The position numbers and the translations under genes are program-made. A DNA stretch of 32,048 bases, from positions 1 through 32,048 of the forward strand of contig DATHJB010000138.1 of the NCBI GenBank assembly GCA_035316325.1, given 5' to 3'. This DNA is from Acidimicrobiales bacterium (GTDB lineage: Bacteria > Actinomycetota > Acidimicrobiia > Acidimicrobiales > VFJN01). The notes under the pieces are model-generated. The model had not been told where the DNA came from. It did no database searches and worked only from the letters and a program-made list of their open reading frames with translations. Positions 5,350-32,048 of the stretch are shown here, one piece after another (the first letter of the stretch is position 1; every line of letters starts with the position of its first letter).

Positions 5350-6669
5350 GTGACCATCCTGGACGACCTCGAGGCTCGTGGGCTGATCCACGACACGACC
5401 GATCGCACGGCGCTGGCCGAGCGTCTCGCCTCGGGGCCGATCACCCTCTACTACGGCTGCGATCCCACCACCGACAGCCTGCACATCGGCAACCTGATCG
5501 GCCTGCTGGTGCTGCGCCGCTTCCAGGACGCGGGTCACCGGGTGGTGGCGCTGGCCGGCGGGGCCACCGGCATGGTGGGCGACCCGAGCGGTCGCTCCGA
5601 GGAGCGCAACCTGCTCGACGAGGCCACGCTGGCGGCCAACGTCGCCGCCCTCGAGGAGCAGATCGCCCGGGTCGTCCGCTTCGACGACGACCGTGCCGTG
5701 CTGGTGAACAACCGCGACTGGACGGCCGACGTCACCCTGCTGGATTTCCTCCGCGACGTCGGCAAGCACGTGACCGTCAACCAGATGATCGCCCGCGAGT
5801 CGGTGAAGAACCGGATGGCGAGCGAGCAGGGCATCAGCTTCACCGAGTTCAGCTACATGCTCCTGCAGGCGTTCGACTACCTGTGGCTGCACGACAACAT
5901 GGGCGTCGAGCTGCAGATCGGCGGGTCCGACCAGTGGGGCAACATCGTCCAGGGCGTCGACCTGATCCGCCGGGTGCGGGGCGAGCCGGCGCACGCCCTG
6001 TCGTGGCCGCTGCTGCTGGCGCCGGACGGGTCGAAGCTGGGCAAGTCCACCGGCGCCCGGATCCTGCTGCACCCGGAGCGCACCAGCCCCTACCGGTTCT
6101 TCCAGCACTGGATGAACACCGACGACCGCCAGGTCCGCGAGTTCCTCCTCACGTTCACGCTGCTGCCGATCCCCGACGTCGACGAGCTCGTGGCCGCGCA
6201 CGAGAAGGCGCCGGAGCAACGGTCGGCCCAGCGGGCGCTGGCCCGGGAGGTCACGAGCCTGGTGCACGGCGCTGCGGCTGCGGTGGCCGCGGAGCAGGCG
6301 TCGGCGGTGCTGTTCGGCGGTTCGGTCGACGCGGCCGGCCCCGAGGCGCTGGCCGCGGTGGCCCGGGAGGTGCCGACGGCGCCGATGCCGGCCGGTGGGA
6401 ATGGATCCGGCGTCGTCGACGTTCTGATCGCTGCAGGCCTGGCGTCGTCACGTAGTGACGCACGTCGGAGCCTCGAAGCCGGAGCGGTGTACGTGAACGG
6501 CGAGCGTGTCGGGCCCGATCGTGAGATCGGTCCGGATGACGTCCGACACGGCCGTTACGTGCTGATTCGCAAGGGCAAGAAGAGTTACGCGGTACTCCTG
6601 AGCAGCGGTTCCGAAGAAAGTTCGGGATTCACACCGTCTCGAGTTGACGACGCTCAGGGTGATCGTTAG
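5350..6669 (+). CDS. tyrS: Tyrosyl-tRNA synthetase
   Basis: TyrS charges tRNA-Tyr with tyrosine in the cytosol. The protein has 439 residues, close to the family norm. The class I signature HIGN follows YYGCDPTTDSL near residue 40. The second signature appears as KLGKST (KMSKS equivalent) near residue 232. The tyrosine-site motif QIGGSDQWGNI lies between them. A C-terminal S4 RNA-binding domain (VDVLIAAGLASSRSDARR onward, about 358-420) is present. The GTG at 5350 is chosen because it gives the normal N-terminus, starting just ahead of LDDLEARGLIHD. GAGCAT, a weak -10 box, ends exactly six bases before it. The open frame extends upstream to 4630 but has no TyrS similarity there. The stop codon TAG (6667-6669) is part of the -10 box of the rrn promoter. 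From memory, tyrS heads the same neighbourhood in M. tuberculosis (Rv1689). Confidence 0.96.
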   Translation: MTILDDLEARGLIHDTTDRTALAERLASGPITLYYGCDPTTDSLHIGNLIGLLVLRRFQDAGHRVVALAGGATGMVGDPSGRSEERNLLDEATLAANVAALEEQIARVVRFDDDRAVLVNNRDWTADVTLLDFLRDVGKHVTVNQMIARESVKNRMASEQGISFTEFSYMLLQAFDYLWLHDNMGVELQIGGSDQWGNIVQGVDLIRRVRGEPAHALSWPLLLAPDGSKLGKSTGARILLHPERTSPYRFFQHWMNTDDRQVREFLLTFTLLPIPDVDELVAAHEKAPEQRSAQRALAREVTSLVHGAAAAVAAEQASAVLFGGSVDAAGPEALAAVAREVPTAPMPAGGNGSGVVDVLIAAGLASSRSDARRSLEAGAVYVNGERVGPDREIGPDDVRHGRYVLIRKGKKSYAVLLSSGSEESSGFTPSRVDDAQGDR

Positions 6670-7029: not shown

Positions 7030-8562
<1,533 letters not shown>

Positions 8563-8683
8563 AGTCATTGCTTCTACATCTGTAGGGGCGACTCCCGAAT
8601 GTTGAACACTCGCTTGGTCCGATCGAAGATGCTCGAGGGTTGAAGGTGTTTCCTCCTCACGAGTGCTCGCTGATCGGTTTACT

Positions 8684-8707
8684 GTCCTCTCTTCTGTTTT
8701 GAGGGAG
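8684..8707 (+). other. 3' arm of the 16S processing stem
   Basis: This segment (core TCCTCTCTTCTGTTTT) is the reverse complement of 6778-6801 with one mismatch and one wobble pair. It closes the stem around pre-16S rRNA. Confidence 0.8.
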
Positions 8708-8773
8708 TGATCTCTGATCCTCTCTTTACTGCCCGAGGCACCGCCTGTATCCATCGGCGTCCTCGGGCTTCTG

Positions 8774-8803
8774 CGCTCTTTGAGAACTACATAGCGAGCA
8801 CGA
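8774..8803 (+). promoter_or_regulatory. Spacer boxA and 5' arm of the 23S processing stem
   Basis: CGCTCTTTGAGAACTA (8774-8789) is a good match to the actinobacterial rrn boxA. The 29 bases 8775-8803 pair with 11891-11919 after 23S. Fourteen consecutive pairs (CATAGCGAGCACGA) are perfect, and the rest contains two mismatches and one G-U pair. The same bases thus serve both antitermination and pre-23S processing. Confidence 0.8.
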
Positions 8804-8815
8804 GCATCTTTGTTC

Positions 8816-11879
<3,064 letters not shown>

Positions 11880-11890
11880 TACAATGACGT

Positions 11891-11919
11891 TCGTGCTCGC
11901 TATGAAGTGCTCAAGGAGC
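11891..11919 (+). other. 3' arm of the 23S processing stem
   Basis: TCGTGCTCGCTATG (11891-11904) and the bases up to 11919 are complementary to 8775-8803, forming the stem expected to release pre-23S rRNA. The 79-bp 23S-5S spacer contains nothing else recognisable. Confidence 0.78.
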
Positions 11920-11958
11920 GGGCGCCTTAGGTGGCGCACCCCTTGATTGACAACAGAT

Positions 11959-12075
<117 letters not shown>

Positions 12076-19487: not shown

Positions 19488-19536
19488 GAAATTGCGACAG
19501 AACCGGCCCGTTCCGGGCTCGTTCTGTCGCAATTTC
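19488..19536. terminator. Palindrome B: 49-nt hairpin between korB and the propeller gene
   Basis: Perfect 16-base arms (GAAATTGCGACAGAAC, 19488-19503, with 19521-19536) and an inner GCCCG/CGGGC stem. It lies between two convergent genes, 12 bp from each stop, so it could end transcription from both sides. No T-tract follows. The GAAATTGCG end is shared with palindrome E. Confidence 0.65.
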
Positions 19537-22829: not shown

Positions 22830-22880
22830 CGAAATCTCGACAGGGATGGCGACATAGCGACCATCTCTGTCGAGATTTCG
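22830..22880. terminator. Palindrome C: 20-bp hairpin after the HAD gene
   Basis: Arms of 20 bases (22830-22849 and 22861-22880; one G-T position) flank an 11-base loop containing ACATA (TATGT on the other strand). The GAAAT-to-ATTTC core is 49 nt. It directly abuts the HAD stop codon and faces a convergent gene, so it may be a two-way terminator, though without a T-tract. Confidence 0.65.
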
Positions 22881-25312: not shown

Positions 25313-26962
25313 GTGCTACTTGAGCTGGCGGTGCGGGACCTGGGCGTCATCCCCGACCTTCGACTCCTGCTCTCGGAGGGCATGAGCGTGGTCACGGGCG
25401 AGACCGGTGCGGGCAAGACGATGGTGGTCGACGCCATCGAGCTGCTGGTGGGGGGTCGGGCCGATCCGCTGCTGGTGCGGACCGGCGCGGAGGAGGCCTG
25501 GGTGGAGGGGCGCTTCCTGCTGCGGGCCGCCGACCGGGAGGTGGTCGGTGAGTTCGGCGAGGACCTGGAGGACGTCGAGGTGGTGCTGGCCCGCGCCATC
25601 CCCCGCAACGGGCGCAGCCGGGCCTACGTCGACGGCCGGCTCGCGACGGTCTCCGCGCTGGTGGAGCTGGGGGAGCGCCTGGTCGACCTGCACGGGCAGC
25701 ACGCCCACCAGTCGCTGCTCAGCCCGGTCGCCCAGCGGGCCGCGCTCGACCGCTTCGGCGACGTCGACCTGGAGGCCGTGCACGTGGCCCGCCAGCGCGA
25801 GCGCGACATCGCGCAGGAGCTGGCAAAGCTCGGCGGCGACGAGCGGGCCCGGGCGCGGGAGATCGACCTGCTGCGCTACCAGGTGGAGGAGCTCGAGGCC
25901 GCCGGGGTCACCGGTCCCGACGAGGACGACGAGCTGGCCGCCGAGGAGGACGTGCTGGCCGACGCCACCGCCCACCACGCGGCCGCCGCCGAGGCGGCCG
26001 CGGCGCTGACCGACGAGGGGGGCGCGGGCGATCCGCTGGGCGCCGCCATCTCGGCGCTGGCCGGCCGGGCGCCGTTCGCCGCCCAGGAGGAGCGGCTGCG
26101 CGCCCTGGCGGCCGAGCTGGCCGACGTCGCGGTCGACGTGCGGGGTGTGGCCGAGGCCATCGACGAGGACCCGGCGCGCCTCGACCTGCTGCGCGAGCGC
26201 CGTCAGCTCCTGTCCGACCTGCGCCGCAAGTACGGCGAGACGTTGGTCGAGGTGCTCGCCGAGTACGAGCGCCTGGGCGCCCGGCTGGCCGAGCTGGAGG
26301 ACCACGACCGCCGGGCCGCCCAGCTCGACGGGGCCCAGGCCGAGGCCCGCAAGGCCTACGAGGAGGAGGCGGCGCGGGTGGCGGCCGCCCGTCGGGCTGC
26401 CGCGCCCGAGCTGGCGCAGGCCGTGGAGGCGAACCTGCGGGAGCTGGCCATGCCCAACGCCCGCCTCGAGGTGCGGGTGGAGGGCGACGACCCGGGCGAC
26501 GACGTCGTGTTCCTGCTGGCCGCCAACCCCGGCACCGAGCCGCAGCCACTGAGCAAGGTGGCGTCGGGCGGCGAGCTGGCCCGGGCCATGCTGGCGCTGC
26601 GCCTCGTGCTGACCAGCGCCCCGCCCACGCTGGTGTTCGACGAGGTCGACGCCGGCATCGGCGGCAGCGCGGCCACGGCCGTGGGGCGAGCCCTGGCGAA
26701 GATCGGCCGGGAGCACCAGGTGCTGGTCGTCACCCACCTGCCCCAGGTGGCGGCCCACGCCGATGCCCACGTGCAGGTGGCCAAGCAGAGCGACGGCGAC
26801 GTCACCGTGTCGCAGGCCACCGTGCTCGACCACGACGAGCGGGTGATCGAGCTGTCGCGCATGCTGTCGGGCCAGCCGGACAGCGACACCGCCCGCCGCC
26901 ACGCCGAGGAGCTCCTGGCGACTGCAACGGCGGTCGGCCAGGAAATAGTGTCAAACGGATGA
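25313..26962 (+). CDS. recN: DNA repair protein RecN
   Basis: RecN is an SMC-like ATPase that holds broken DNA ends in double-strand break repair. The 549 residues contain Walker A GETGAGKT (29-36), the family motif LVDLHGQHAHQSLL (about 124-137), a coiled-coil core rich in Arg/Glu/Ala (about 160-370), the ABC signature VASGGELARAM (about 414-424), Walker B LVFDEVDAGIGG (about 440-451), and the H-loop VTHLPQVAAHAD. The GTG at 25313 gives the usual LLELAVRDLGVI start and follows GAGAAGGG at 25297-25304. There are 27 bp after nadK, and the stop overlaps the steA ATG (ATGA). No LexA/SOS box was recognised upstream. Confidence 0.96.
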   Translation: MLLELAVRDLGVIPDLRLLLSEGMSVVTGETGAGKTMVVDAIELLVGGRADPLLVRTGAEEAWVEGRFLLRAADREVVGEFGEDLEDVEVVLARAIPRNGRSRAYVDGRLATVSALVELGERLVDLHGQHAHQSLLSPVAQRAALDRFGDVDLEAVHVARQRERDIAQELAKLGGDERARAREIDLLRYQVEELEAAGVTGPDEDDELAAEEDVLADATAHHAAAAEAAAALTDEGGAGDPLGAAISALAGRAPFAAQEERLRALAAELADVAVDVRGVAEAIDEDPARLDLLRERRQLLSDLRRKYGETLVEVLAEYERLGARLAELEDHDRRAAQLDGAQAEARKAYEEEAARVAAARRAAAPELAQAVEANLRELAMPNARLEVRVEGDDPGDDVVFLLAANPGTEPQPLSKVASGGELARAMLALRLVLTSAPPTLVFDEVDAGIGGSAATAVGRALAKIGREHQVLVVTHLPQVAAHADAHVQVAKQSDGDVTVSQATVLDHDERVIELSRMLSGQPDSDTARRHAEELLATATAVGQEIVSNG

Positions 26963-28122
26963 TCCGTCGCCTGCGTCGCTCCGACAACGGTTCCCAGGAG
27001 GGACCGATCGTCGGGGTGGCGCGGGTCGACCGGAAGACGAAGCGCCTGGTGGGACGGCTGCAGCCGGGCGACGTGGCGGTGATCCACCACGCCGACATCG
27101 ACCGTGTGGCCGCCGAGACGCTGGTCGACGCGGCGCCCGTCGCGGTGATCAACGCGGCGCCGTCGACCACCGGCCGCTACCCGAACCTGGGGCCGCTGCT
27201 GCTGTGCCAGGCCGGCATCACGCTGGTCGACGACGTGGGCAGCGACGTGATGGACCGCATCGTCGAGGGCACCAAGGTGACCGTCGACGGCGAGCGCGTG
27301 CTGGTCGACGGCGAGGTCGTCGGCACCGGGGTGAAGCAGGACCTCGACAAGGTCGACGCGGCCATCGAGTCGGCCCGGGCCAACATGGGCCCCGAGCTGG
27401 AGCGCTTCGCCATCAACACGGTGAGCTACATGCGCCAGGAGATGGACCTGCTCACCGGCGAGCTCGCCGTGCCCGCCCCCCGCGTGGCGCTCGGGGGCCG
27501 TCACGTGCTGATCGTGGTGCGGGGCATCGACTACAAGGAGGATCTGCGCCTCCTGCGCCAGTCGGGCTACGTGAACGACGTGAAGCCCGTGCTGATCGGG
27601 GTCGACGGTGGGGCCGACGCCCTGCTGGCGATCGGCGAGCGCCCGGACCTGATCATCGGCGACTTCGACTCGGTGTCGGAGACGGCGCTGCGCTGCGGGG
27701 CCGAGCTGATGGTGCACGGCTACACCGACGGCCGTGCGCCCGGCGCCAAGCGGCTCGACGACCTCGACCTGCCCTACTCCGTGTTCTCCGCGCCCGGCAC
27801 CAGCGAGGACATCGCCATGCTGCTGGCCTTCGAGCACGGCGCCGAGCTGATCGTGGCGGTGGGGACGCACAACAGCATGGTGGAGTTCCTCGACAAGGGC
27901 CGGGCGGGCATGGCGTCCACCTTCCTGGTGCGGATGCGTATAGGTTCTGCCCTCGTCGATGCCAAGGGAGTGAGCCGCCTCTACCAGCAGACCGTCCGTC
28001 GACGAGACCTGCTGATGCTGGTGGGAGCGGCGCTCGCGACGCTGGTCGTCGTCGTGCTCGTCTCGACACCGATGCGCCTCGTGCTCCGCTCGCTGTGGAT
28101 CACGTTGACCGCCGGCTTCTAG
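26959..28122 (+). CDS. steA: SteA-like cytokinetic-ring protein (thiamine pyrophosphokinase-like domain)
   Basis: Homologue of SteA, which in Corynebacterium works with SteB in cell division and cell-wall hydrolase control. The 387 residues begin with a small beta domain (IVGVARVDRKTKRLVGRL) and a regulatory-like segment (VINAAPSTTGRYPNLGPLLL). The pyrophosphokinase-like fold follows: IVVRGIDYKEDLRLL, VDGGADALLAIG, DLIIGDFDSVSE near 225-238. The C-terminus has one membrane helix (LLMLVGAALATLVVVVLVS) and a short tail. Its translation is coupled to recN by the 4-nt overlap, and steB follows after 21 bp. From memory this equals Rv1697 of M. tuberculosis. The catalytic residues of true thiamine pyrophosphokinases are only partly kept, so enzyme activity is uncertain. 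Confidence 0.92.
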   Translation: MIRRLRRSDNGSQEGPIVGVARVDRKTKRLVGRLQPGDVAVIHHADIDRVAAETLVDAAPVAVINAAPSTTGRYPNLGPLLLCQAGITLVDDVGSDVMDRIVEGTKVTVDGERVLVDGEVVGTGVKQDLDKVDAAIESARANMGPELERFAINTVSYMRQEMDLLTGELAVPAPRVALGGRHVLIVVRGIDYKEDLRLLRQSGYVNDVKPVLIGVDGGADALLAIGERPDLIIGDFDSVSETALRCGAELMVHGYTDGRAPGAKRLDDLDLPYSVFSAPGTSEDIAMLLAFEHGAELIVAVGTHNSMVEFLDKGRAGMASTFLVRMRIGSALVDAKGVSRLYQQTVRRRDLLMLVGAALATLVVVVLVSTPMRLVLRSLWITLTAGF

Positions 28123-28143: not shown

Positions 28144-29154
28144 ATGATCAACTTCCGCTTCCACCTCATCTCGTTGACCGCGGTCTTCCTGTCGTTCGCG
28201 GTCGGCCTGCTGCTCGGCACCAACTTCCTGGCCGACGCCTCGAAGAACTACCTGGAGGACCGGCTCGACACCTTCGCCGACCGCCTCAACGACGAGGAGG
28301 CCACCAACGACGAGCTGTCGGCGCAGGTCGGCAGCCTGGAGTCGGAGGGCGAGCAGCTCGACGAGCAGGTGGGCGAGCGGCTCTTCACCGGACTGCTGAC
28401 CGCCGACCCGGTGCTGGTGGTGGCGCCGCGGGGCCTGCAGGGCGACACGGGGCCGGTGGAGCGGGTGCTCGACTCGTTGGCCAAGGCGGGCGCGGACGCC
28501 CGCGGGGTGTGGTGGCTGACCGACCGCCTGGTGCTCGACGACGAGGACGAGGCGACCGAGCTGGCGCAGATCCTCGGCCTGAACGACACCGACCCGGTGG
28601 CGCTGCGCAACGAGCTGGGGGCACGGCTGGCCTCGGTGCTGGCCGCGGCCACCGACGCCGGCGACGCCACGAGCCCGGACCTCACCGCCGCCCAGGCCGA
28701 ACCCGACCTGCTGGCCCAGCTGAACGACGCCGGGTTCGTCGACTACCAGCTCGCCGAGGGCGACGACTCCGAGGTGGTGACGCTGCCGACCAGCGGCCTG
28801 CGGGTGGTGACGGTGACCGGCGAGGGCGCGGTGCTCACCGGCGACCAGGTGGTGCTGCCGATGCTGTCGGGGCTCGCCGCCGAGGGGCCGGTGCCGGTGG
28901 TGCTGGCGGAGACGCCGGTCGTGCCCGACGACGACCCGGAGACCGACGACGAGGGCGACCCGCTGGTGGCGCAGATCCGCGCCGACGGGACGCTGGGCGA
29001 CCGCATCTCCACGGTCGACGACGTCGACCGGGTGTCGGGCCGGATCGCCACGATGCTGGCGCTCGACGACGCCGTGCCGTCGGCCCCGGTGGTGGGCCAC
29101 TACGGCCTACGCCCCGACGCCGACCGCCTGCTTCCCGCCCCGCCCGAAGAGTGA
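28144..29154 (+). CDS. steB: SteB/MctB family membrane-anchored protein (copper transporter family in annotation)
   Basis: A 336-residue protein of the MctB/SteB family. An N-terminal uncleaved anchor (FHLISLTAVFLSFAVGLLLGT, residues 5-25) is followed by a coiled-coil segment (about 33-78; LEDRLDTFADRLNDEE, ELSAQVGSLESEGEQLDEQV) and a globular outer domain with acidic loops near the end (PDDDPETDDEGDP). The M. tuberculosis homologue Rv1698 was described as an outer-membrane copper channel, and the corynebacterial one as the SteA partner in division. The adjacency to steA and murJ favours a cell-envelope role here (inference). The ATG is well placed 21 bp after steA but has no clear ribosome site. 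Its last codons overlap the likely murJ GTG. Confidence 0.9.
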   Translation: MINFRFHLISLTAVFLSFAVGLLLGTNFLADASKNYLEDRLDTFADRLNDEEATNDELSAQVGSLESEGEQLDEQVGERLFTGLLTADPVLVVAPRGLQGDTGPVERVLDSLAKAGADARGVWWLTDRLVLDDEDEATELAQILGLNDTDPVALRNELGARLASVLAAATDAGDATSPDLTAAQAEPDLLAQLNDAGFVDYQLAEGDDSEVVTLPTSGLRVVTVTGEGAVLTGDQVVLPMLSGLAAEGPVPVVLAETPVVPDDDPETDDEGDPLVAQIRADGTLGDRISTVDDVDRVSGRIATMLALDDAVPSAPVVGHYGLRPDADRLLPAPPEE

Positions 29155-30788
29155 GCGCGCCGGTGAGCGAGCCCGTCTTTGCAGGGAAACGACCCGTATG
29201 GGGTCGTTTCCCTGCAAAGACGCGGGGGACGGGGCGGGCCGCGGCCGGGATGGGCGCGGTCACGGCCCTGTCGCGGGCCGCCGGGTTCGTGCGGGTGCTG
29301 GTGATCATGGCGGTGCTCGGCACCAACGACCTGGGCGACGCCTTCCAGACCGCCAACCTGCTGTCGAACGTGCTGTTCGAGCTGCTGGCCGCCGGCGCCC
29401 TGTCGGCCGTGCTGGTGCCCACCTTCGTGCAGCTGCTCGACCAGGGCGACCAGGAGGCCGCCGAGGAGGTCGCCGGCCGCGTGCTGGGCGTCGCCCTGAT
29501 GGTGCTGGGGGCGGTGACGGTGGTGGGCATCCTCGCCTCGCCGCTGCTGGCCCGGGTGCTGACCTTGAACGCCCCGGCCGACGTGGCCGACGACCAGCGT
29601 GACCTCGTCGCCTTCCTGCTCCCGTTCTTCCTGCCCCAGGTGCTGCTGTACGCCGCCGGGACGATCGCCAGCGCGGTCCTCTTCGCCCGCCGCCGCTTCG
29701 CCATCACCGCGGCGGCGCCGATCGGCAACACGGTGGTGATGGTGGCCGGCCTCGTGTTGTTCCGGGTGGCCGTCGGCACCGATCCGGGCCTCGACCTGTC
29801 CACCGGTGAGCGGCTGCTGCTGGTGCTGGCCGCCACGGGCGGGGTGCTCGGGTTCGTCGGAGTGCTGCTGGTGGCCTGCGCCCGGTCGGGGTTCCGGCTG
29901 CGCCCGCGGCGACTCGCGGGTGACACCCGGGTGACCGCGGTGCTGCGCCACTCGGGTTGGGGGGTGACGCTGCACACCGCCGGCGGGCTGCTGCTGGGCG
30001 CCGCGATCCTGGCGTGCTCGGGCGTCGCCGGCGGCGTGGTGGCCTACAACGCCGCCTGGGTGTTCTTCCTGGCCCCGTACGCCGTACTGGCCCAGCCGGT
30101 GCACACCACGATCCTGCCGGAGCTGGTGATGGAGGCCCGCGACCACGGCCTGGCCCGGGTGGCGGCCTCGCTGCGCTGGGCGCTGGAGCGGATGGGCCTG
30201 CTGGTGCTGCCGGTGACCGCGGCGCTGGTCGCCCTGGCGCTGCCGGGCATGCGGCTGGTGGAGTTCGGGGAGACCGGTCGCTCGGGCGTGGAGCTGGTGG
30301 CGGCGGCGCTGGCCGGACTCGCGGCCGGCCTCTACCCCTACAGCGCCTTCCTGCTGTTCTCCCGGGGTTACTACGCGCTCGACGAGAGCCGCTTCCCGGG
30401 TCTGGTCGCCATCGGGAGCGCCGCCTGCGGTGTGGCGGTGATGGTGGGCGCCGGGGCCTGGCTCGACGGCTCGGCCCGCATCGCCGTGCTGGGCCTGGCC
30501 CACTCGTTCGCCTATTCGGTCGGGGCGCTGGTGCTGGCGGTCGGCCTGCGACGACGCACGGGGGCGCCGCTGCTGCCGGCGGGCCTCGGTCGGATGGTCG
30601 GGGTGAGCGCCGCGGTCGGCCTCGGCGCGTGGGCCGCCGGCGAGGCGCTGCTGGGCGACGACCCGGGCCGCCTCGCCGACCTGGCGTTCGTCGCCGGGGC
30701 GGGGGTCGTGGGGACGGCGCTGGTGGTCGGCGCCTACCGGCTGCTGGGCGTCACGTCGTCGCTCAGCACCCGTGGGGCCGCGGCATGA
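29151..30788 (+). CDS. murJ: MurJ/MviN lipid II flippase
   Basis: MurJ moves lipid II across the membrane for peptidoglycan synthesis. From the GTG at 29151 it has 545 residues. It shows the family pattern SRAAGFVRVLVIMAVLGTNDLGDAFQTANLLSNVLFELLAAGALSAVLVPTF near the N-terminus, then about 14 hydrophobic helices, with FARRRFAITAAAPIGNTVV and AVLAQPVHTTILPEL as family blocks. The GTG overlaps the steB stop (GTGA), which supports coupling. The N-terminal ~30 residues include a stretch encoded by palindrome D (EPVFAGKRPVWGRFPAKT) that is not part of the flippase fold. An ATG at 29250 would give a 512-residue protein starting just before the conserved region. The stop overlaps the next gene by ATGA. 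Unlike mycobacterial MurJ it has no kinase-like fusion. Confidence 0.92.
   Translation: MSAPVSEPVFAGKRPVWGRFPAKTRGTGRAAAGMGAVTALSRAAGFVRVLVIMAVLGTNDLGDAFQTANLLSNVLFELLAAGALSAVLVPTFVQLLDQGDQEAAEEVAGRVLGVALMVLGAVTVVGILASPLLARVLTLNAPADVADDQRDLVAFLLPFFLPQVLLYAAGTIASAVLFARRRFAITAAAPIGNTVVMVAGLVLFRVAVGTDPGLDLSTGERLLLVLAATGGVLGFVGVLLVACARSGFRLRPRRLAGDTRVTAVLRHSGWGVTLHTAGGLLLGAAILACSGVAGGVVAYNAAWVFFLAPYAVLAQPVHTTILPELVMEARDHGLARVAASLRWALERMGLLVLPVTAALVALALPGMRLVEFGETGRSGVELVAAALAGLAAGLYPYSAFLLFSRGYYALDESRFPGLVAIGSAACGVAVMVGAGAWLDGSARIAVLGLAHSFAYSVGALVLAVGLRRRTGAPLLPAGLGRMVGVSAAVGLGAWAAGEALLGDDPGRLADLAFVAGAGVVGTALVVGAYRLLGVTSSLSTRGAAA
29174..29222. repeat. Palindrome D: perfect 22-bp inverted repeat in the murJ 5' end
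   Basis: Arms 29174-29195 and 29201-29222 are perfectly complementary over 22 bases around loop GTATG; the total span is 49 nt. It lies 23 bases after the murJ GTG and is read through in frame. In RNA it would form a very stable hairpin within the coding start of murJ. If the ATG at 29250 is the real start, it is an intergenic hairpin instead. Confidence 0.9.
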
Positions 30789-32048
30789 GGCTCCTCGGGA
30801 AATTGCGTCGATCCGCCCGCCATGTGCGGGTTTTCCGACGCAATTTCGCCGGGGTGGGGCTCGCGGGGCTGCTCGGGCTGGTGGTGGTCGCCGGATGTGG
30901 CGGGGGCGACGAGCCGCGGGAGGTCGGCGACGCGCCGGTCGACCGGGTGCTGGTGGTGTCGCTGCCGGGGGTGTCGTGGGAGGACGTGCAGCGCTACGAC
31001 ATGCCCAACCTGGAGGCGTTCGTCGACGAGGCCGCCATCGGCGACGTGTCCACCCGCATCGGCCGGGTGGCGGCCGGCACCACCGACGCCTACCTGAGCA
31101 TGGGCGCCGGCACCCGGGCGCTGGCCCCCGAGATCGACGTGGCCGTCGCCCTCGAGCCCGACGAGCGCTACGGCGGCGTGCCCGCCTCGGAGATCCTGCA
31201 GCGCCGGCTGGGCGTGGTGCCCCCGGGCATCGGCTACCTGGCGATCGGCGCCGCCATCGACCGCAACGACGACAGCCCCTACGGCGCCGACGTGGGCCTG
31301 CTCGGCCAGGCGCTCGCCGACGCCGGCATCCCCCGGGCCGTGGTCGCCAACGCGGATGCCGGTGAGGGCTTCGTGAGCGAGGACCCGCCGCCCGACGGCG
31401 CCTACGCCCGCAGCGCGGCGACGATGCTGATGGGCGACGACGGCATCGTCCCCGACGGCATGGTCAGTCGCAACCTCCTCGTCGACGACCCCGCCGCCCC
31501 CTTCGGTCGCCGCCTCGACCACGACGCCGTGCTCAACGCGCTCGACCTGGAGTGGAACGACAGCGGCCGCACGGTGGTCCTGGTGGAGGCCTCGGACCTG
31601 AGCCGGGCCGCCGCCTACCGGCCCCGGGCGACGCCGGCCCAGGCCCGCCAGCTGCGGGAGCAGGCGATGGTCGACGCCGACGTGCTGCTGGGCGAGGTGC
31701 TGGAGCGGGCCGACTCGTCGCGCGACGCCGTGGTGGTGGTGTCGCCGGTCGCGCCCCGGGGTGCGCCGGCGCTGGCGATGGTGGCGCTCCGGGCGCCGGG
31801 CGTGGACCCGGGCCTGCTGCAGTCGGCGACGACGCGGCGCGACGGCTACGTCCACCTGGCCGACGTGGCGCCCACGGTCCTGTCGCTGCTGGGGGAGGAG
31901 CCGCCCGACGGCATCGAGGGCCGCAGCTTCCAGGTGGGCGACGACGAGGTGGCGGGCCGCGTCAGCCGGCTGGTCGACGAGACCGCCGCCGCCGACGTCC
32001 GCGACTCGCAGCAGGCGCTGGTCGTCACGCTGATCTCGGTGGGGACCG
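30785..32048 (+). CDS. Alkaline-phosphatase-like lipoprotein, 3' end outside the window
   Basis: The gene begins with ATG at 30785, overlapping the murJ stop (ATGA), and stays open to the window edge (421 codons seen). A basic N-terminus (MRLLGKLRRSARHVRVFRR) leads to a hydrophobic stretch and the lipobox VVVAGC, followed by a short Gly/Asp linker. The body resembles the alkaline phosphatase/sulfatase fold: DRVLVVSLPGVSWEDV, MPNLEAF, AAGTTDAYLSMGAGTRA, and LADVAPTVLSLLGEEPPDGIEGRS, which matches the usual DIAPTVLSLLG end motif. The metal-binding Asp expected in the first strand is missing (SLPG), so it may not be a phosphatase. Palindrome E is read in frame within codons 5-21. A GTG at 30854 after the palindrome is an alternative start but lacks a basic signal. 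Position in the steA-steB-murJ operon suggests an envelope role. Confidence 0.75.
   Translation, partial: MRLLGKLRRSARHVRVFRRNFAGVGLAGLLGLVVVAGCGGGDEPREVGDAPVDRVLVVSLPGVSWEDVQRYDMPNLEAFVDEAAIGDVSTRIGRVAAGTTDAYLSMGAGTRALAPEIDVAVALEPDERYGGVPASEILQRRLGVVPPGIGYLAIGAAIDRNDDSPYGADVGLLGQALADAGIPRAVVANADAGEGFVSEDPPPDGAYARSAATMLMGDDGIVPDGMVSRNLLVDDPAAPFGRRLDHDAVLNALDLEWNDSGRTVVLVEASDLSRAAAYRPRATPAQARQLREQAMVDADVLLGEVLERADSSRDAVVVVSPVAPRGAPALAMVALRAPGVDPGLLQSATTRRDGYVHLADVAPTVLSLLGEEPPDGIEGRSFQVGDDEVAGRVSRLVDETAAADVRDSQQALVVTLISVGT
30799..30847. repeat. Palindrome E: 49-nt inverted repeat at the start of the last gene
   Basis: Outer arms GAAATTGCGTCG (30799-30810) and its perfect complement (30836-30847) flank an internal loop and an inner CCCGC/GCGGG stem closing on CATGT. 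It begins 14 bases after the ATG at 30785 and is read in frame as part of the basic N-terminus. The outer arm matches the outer arm of palindrome B for nine bases. Confidence 0.8.

Follow-up and report, generated by a model that had tools for sequence, protein, structure and literature searches.

A family of short palindromic repeats, designated F1, is dispersed through the genome of an Acidimicrobiales bacterium, and one of its copies lies at the beginning of murJ, the gene for the lipid II flippase. In all likelihood F1 is a non-autonomous palindromic repeat of the REP/RPE kind that landed in the region of the MurJ N-terminal tail. This copy was recognized in a window of 32,048 nucleotides, the whole stretch of DNA analysed here (Table 1), in which steA, an MctB-type gene in the steB position and murJ follow one another; this gene order and a GC content of 70% point to Actinomycetota. 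The window also holds a complete 16S-23S-5S rRNA operon (7030-12075), and an Rfam search gave matches to rRNAs only. A second, distant MurJ-like protein with 28% identity is encoded elsewhere in the same genome (G000:C168:12068-13219).

Table 1. Features of the window and loci in other genomes that carry the outer arms of F1
Feature	Position or loci	Strand	Remarks
Family F1 palindromic element, 49 nt	29174..29222	.	arms 29174-29195 and 29201-29222, loop 29196-29200 (GTATG)
Element as coding stretch	29175..29222	+	16 codons, VFAGKRPVWGRFPAKT
murJ (lipid II flippase), most likely translated form	29151..30788	+	GTG 29151 (alternative GTG 29163); PF03023, 2.7e-52
MctB-like gene (steB position)	28144..29154	+	PF11382, 2.3e-46; stop overlaps murJ start
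steA, putative cytokinetic ring protein	26959..28122	+	NF040608, 3.5e-141
Family F5 palindrome, 49 nt	30799..30847	.	in frame, N-terminus of the gene following murJ; read as KLRRSARHVRVFRRNF
Family F2 palindrome	22830..22880	.	between convergent genes
Family F4 palindrome	19488..19536	.	between convergent genes
Pedococcus bigeumensis, F1 outer arms	L169-L170, L172, L174-L177, L180, L182-L184		
MAG Chersky.40_32, F1 outer arms	L168, L171, L178, L179		

The initial annotation of this DNA described a perfect 49-nt palindrome ahead of the conserved part of MurJ, encoding about 16 residues and preceded by a GTG overlapping the stop codon of steB. Each of these particulars was borne out: the two arms of 22 nt are 100% complementary and enclose a loop of 5 nt, the GTG at 29151-29153 overlaps the TGA at 29152-29154, and the 16 codons of the element are all sense. 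The 121 nt surrounding the palindrome fold with -79.3 kcal/mol (z = -6.05), a value equalled by none of 200 shuffled sequences, and among the 24 F1 copies that of the window has the most stable hairpin (-43.9 kcal/mol). Across a 150-kb contig, seven real hairpins reach a score of at least 14, as against none after composition shuffling.

Translation of murJ very probably runs through the palindrome, to judge from the sequence. The element is included whether translation begins at 29151 or at a second in-frame GTG, at 29163, whereas the murJ frame from 29166 to 29249 contains no ATG, GTG or TTG. The next candidate is the ATG at 29250, where the region delimited by the initial annotation ended; it lies within the conserved start of MurJ. 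If murJ began there, the palindrome would be a non-coding, intercistronic RNA element acting in mRNA stability or translation control. This reading, which has little probability, is consistent with the mostly intergenic location of REP-type repeats, N-terminal examples of which were often judged extragenic in other species (PMC3733652), and with the choice of 29250 by the simple codon-usage gene caller employed (the murJ copy was counted as in-gene by hand). However, the RAAAG-type residues upstream of 29250, part of a RAAAG-M-G motif, are conserved in relatives, with synonymous codon changes, and as no start codon separates the palindrome from 29250, translation of these residues implies a translated palindrome. 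The TIGR01695 profile likewise begins ahead of residue 34: its positions 9-499 correspond to MurJ residues 34-535 in a match below the model's cut-off, and about eight profile positions precede the ATG. Moreover, 11 further F1 copies lie in frame inside genes, and the frames of relatives mostly open at a start overlapping the stop codon of the preceding gene (NTGA in most of the loci inspected). An exception is G011 (L034), with a longer MurJ tail and no clear overlapping start. Comparison of MurJ N-termini, proposed earlier as a check, gave tails of 18-22 residues before the MG motif in the relatives counted, compared with 33 residues here and 17 without the element.

It had also been suggested that the hairpin bars fresh ribosome loading, so that translation may depend on ribosomes coming off steB; as a regulatory element of murJ it would then allow MurJ to be made by such ribosomes only. 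The very stable hairpin, 23 nt downstream of the start overlapping the stop codon of steB, fits such a role, yet the same start-stop overlap is found in relatives devoid of the hairpin; any coupling between steB and murJ is therefore not caused by the element. As members of F1 also reside in genes of other kinds, well away from start codons, regulation of this type is hardly credible.

With up to three mismatches allowed, 37 F1 arms are present in the genome of 6.37 Mb, and almost all of them form pairs that face inward. Complete copies number 24 in the 1.73 Mb of sequence examined, which was chosen to include the contigs with arm matches, and comprise all 20 exact-arm copies counted genome-wide. 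The consensus is TCTTTGAAGGGAAACGACCC-N5-GGGTCGTTTCCCTTCAAAGA, with a core of 45 nt whose mean pairwise identity among the 24 copies is 84%. This divergence and the in-frame position of half of the copies make an assembly artefact an unlikely origin of the repeats. At pair 9 the window copy and the copy at C61:19841 have C-G where the other 22 have A-T, both arms being changed; the paired change may reflect selection for structure, or one arm may have served as template for its partner. One further F1 copy, near the end of contig C183, is broken by other DNA: in this copy (G000:C183, L140, ~6139-6168) the right arm is cut after GGGTC and unrelated DNA starts TTGGTCTCAGGGGG. The interrupting DNA is possibly an insertion sequence; its identification as IS30 found no support in Pfam (0 families, 28 residues).

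According to the simple codon-usage caller, and with the murJ copy assigned by hand, 12 of the 24 copies are in frame in genes; of the remainder, 10 separate convergent genes, one tandem and one divergent genes. The in-gene share (12/24) far exceeds that of the other palindrome families of this genome (3/55; Fisher p = 1.4e-5). In-gene copies are read exclusively in phases 1 and 2 (seven and five copies), whereas phase 0, where the arm consensus gives CTT TGA, is never used; the chance of avoiding this phase in 12 copies is (2/3)^12 = 0.008. The phase of the murJ copy recurs in the in-gene copies on C126, C139, C146 and C224. An in-frame palindromic element like those of Rickettsia, as the initial annotation had envisaged, is thus well supported by some 24 dispersed copies, half of them in frame inside genes, in addition to the shorter MurJ tail of the relatives and a translation start very probably upstream of the palindrome.

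The genes that harbour F1 encode a tetrapyrrole methylase-MazG fusion, PriA, an acyltransferase, an MFS-ABC fusion, a DUF5691 protein and MurJ, among others. These hosts belong to conserved families, and in several of them the family match spans the element (TP_methylase, PriA, Acyl_transf_3, DUF5691). In five carrier genes compared with those of relatives, the element falls in stretches of variable length. The MazG fusion lacks 14-16 residues at the element site in three relatives. In several places the relatives differ by fewer residues than the element encodes, namely by 6-7 in PriA, 5-6 in a glycosyltransferase and five in the MazG of G001, which indicates that those loops vary by other routes too. 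One comparison (C139 versus L199, an ABC homologue) shows no net gap, and one acyltransferase homologue is longer at the element site than the copy of this genome. An exactly empty site was not seen among the relatives compared, the nearest of which is 68% identical in MurJ. From these comparisons insertion at tolerant sites appears likely, the net differences running from 16 residues (MazG fusion) down to about 5-7 (PriA, glycosyltransferase).

A de novo hairpin search revealed additional families, F2-F7, mostly of ~49 nt. Every listed genome-wide hairpin with intact GAAATTGCG arms (F3-F5) has a span of exactly 49 nt, in a search that also permitted different lengths; 60 relatives yielded no such hairpin. 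The F5 block of the window, which is absent from this N-terminus in the six relatives listed, would supply the charged portion of a signal peptide of lipoprotein type in the gene after murJ. Among the intergenic copies of F2-F7, 37 of 49 are situated between convergent genes, against an expectation of 17%. F2-F7 copies are commonly found within ~15 nt of both stop codons, for example on C212, C103 and C11.

Together with the 10 of 12 non-genic F1 copies in the same setting, this excess could mean that F1 is basically a bidirectional gene-end hairpin, which is propagated at convergent 3' ends through selection or gene conversion and leaves in-gene copies as by-products. The F1-like palindromes of Pedococcus and of a permafrost MAG, which are intergenic according to a similar gene caller, point in the same direction. 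Selection at gene ends, however, does not account for the half of the F1 copies that lie inside genes, and a consensus scan finds no terminator-like site at the window copy; this origin is consequently rated unlikely. No intrinsic terminator (a GC-rich hairpin followed by a T run) was detected between 28000 and 31200.

A search for RAYT/Y1_Tnp transposases (PF01797) gave no match in this genome, the assembly of which is 96.8% complete, and was positive in 5 of 14 control genomes. Direct repeats in the flanks are no longer than those of shuffled sequences at the boundary of the 45-nt core (p = 0.41); a weak excess at offsets of 4-5 nt (p 0.03-0.05, uncorrected) is not convincing as a target-site duplication. 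In the search for a parent insertion sequence, a single one of the unpaired TTTGAAGG seeds in the 1.73 Mb proved to be a true F1 arm, belonging to the interrupted copy, and no clear end of a parent element was encountered.

We infer the following course of events for a dispersed repeat of the REP/RPE kind. F1 would have spread through a high-GC genome by a mobility deduced from its distribution, and would have reached the stretch coding for the MurJ N-terminal tail. Since the length of the 45-nt core is divisible by three and the consensus is free of stops in two of its three frames, insertions at tolerant sites (protein ends, loops and linkers) would leave the gene open while adding ~15-16 residues. 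The murJ copy would then be translated from the upstream start as VFAGKRPVWGRFPAKT, probably with neutral effect. More speculatively, a single mechanism other than Y1 transposition might make and spread several sequence-unrelated families with an almost constant length of ~49 nt, F1 being tolerated in genes through its multiple-of-three length and two open frames; this extension is rather doubtful.

F1 was not found in 60 relatives when two mismatches were allowed, and a search for exact 9-nt arms gave no match in 395 genomes of the class. A search with MurJ among named genome contigs returned no relative. Exact 10-nt outer arms were detected at 11 loci of Pedococcus bigeumensis and four loci of the permafrost Actinomycetota MAG Chersky.40_32, in palindromes whose inner stems differ from that of F1; these may be related to F1 or convergent. 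Isolated exact-arm matches came from one Lachnospiraceae and one Pseudovibrio, and the exact-arm contig scan returned no Rickettsia record. Seven matches in viral contigs, with GC of 0.36-0.49 and poorly paired interiors, were judged to be due to chance, and plasmids gave no F1 match.

Palindromic repeats that are read as part of proteins are known chiefly from Rickettsia, intragenic REPs being found here and there in other organisms. The rickettsial palindromic elements, RPEs (Ogata 2000, 2002), measure ~150 bp and encode a conserved peptide (PMC10969869, PMC3733652). F1 resembles them in being a dispersed palindrome of which nearly half of the copies (12/24 as counted here) are in frame in unrelated genes, in the presence of several families per genome and in the use of both N-terminal and internal sites. 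It departs from them in its length of 45-49 nt (49 nt as against ~150 bp; PMC10969869), in being read in two different frames, in its high-GC host and in the lack of an unpaired tag. By this comparison of descriptions, F1 works like an RPE and is not a member of that group.

The GTAG and CGTC superfamilies of REPs (Di Nocera 2013) are 20-40 bp long with stems of 5-13 bp (PMC3733652). Like REPs, F1 elements are short palindromes, many of them within 20 bp of convergent gene ends and some intragenic (PMC3733652); like the CGTC type they have no dedicated transposase, and some copies carry a terminal CGTC. Unlike REPs, they reach 45-49 nt and have stems as long as 22 bp, and no Y1 transposase was found in the genome. 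GTAG is absent from the ends of the 24 copies and CGTC, where present, is often paired with GACG, as in the window copy, leaving no unpaired tag. With MITEs such as RUP, NEMIS and ERIC (PMC10969869, PMC3733652) F1 shares a non-autonomous, inverted-repeat and multi-copy nature, but it is without a convincing target-site duplication, has an interior of only ~5 nt and shows no parent insertion sequence with F1 ends.

The significance of F1 lies in the combination of a high-GC genome, in which no RAYT was found, and a family with half of its copies in frame in genes, murJ and priA among them. Genomes of sister strains would permit direct observation of the movement of these elements and of the extent to which proteins accommodate them.
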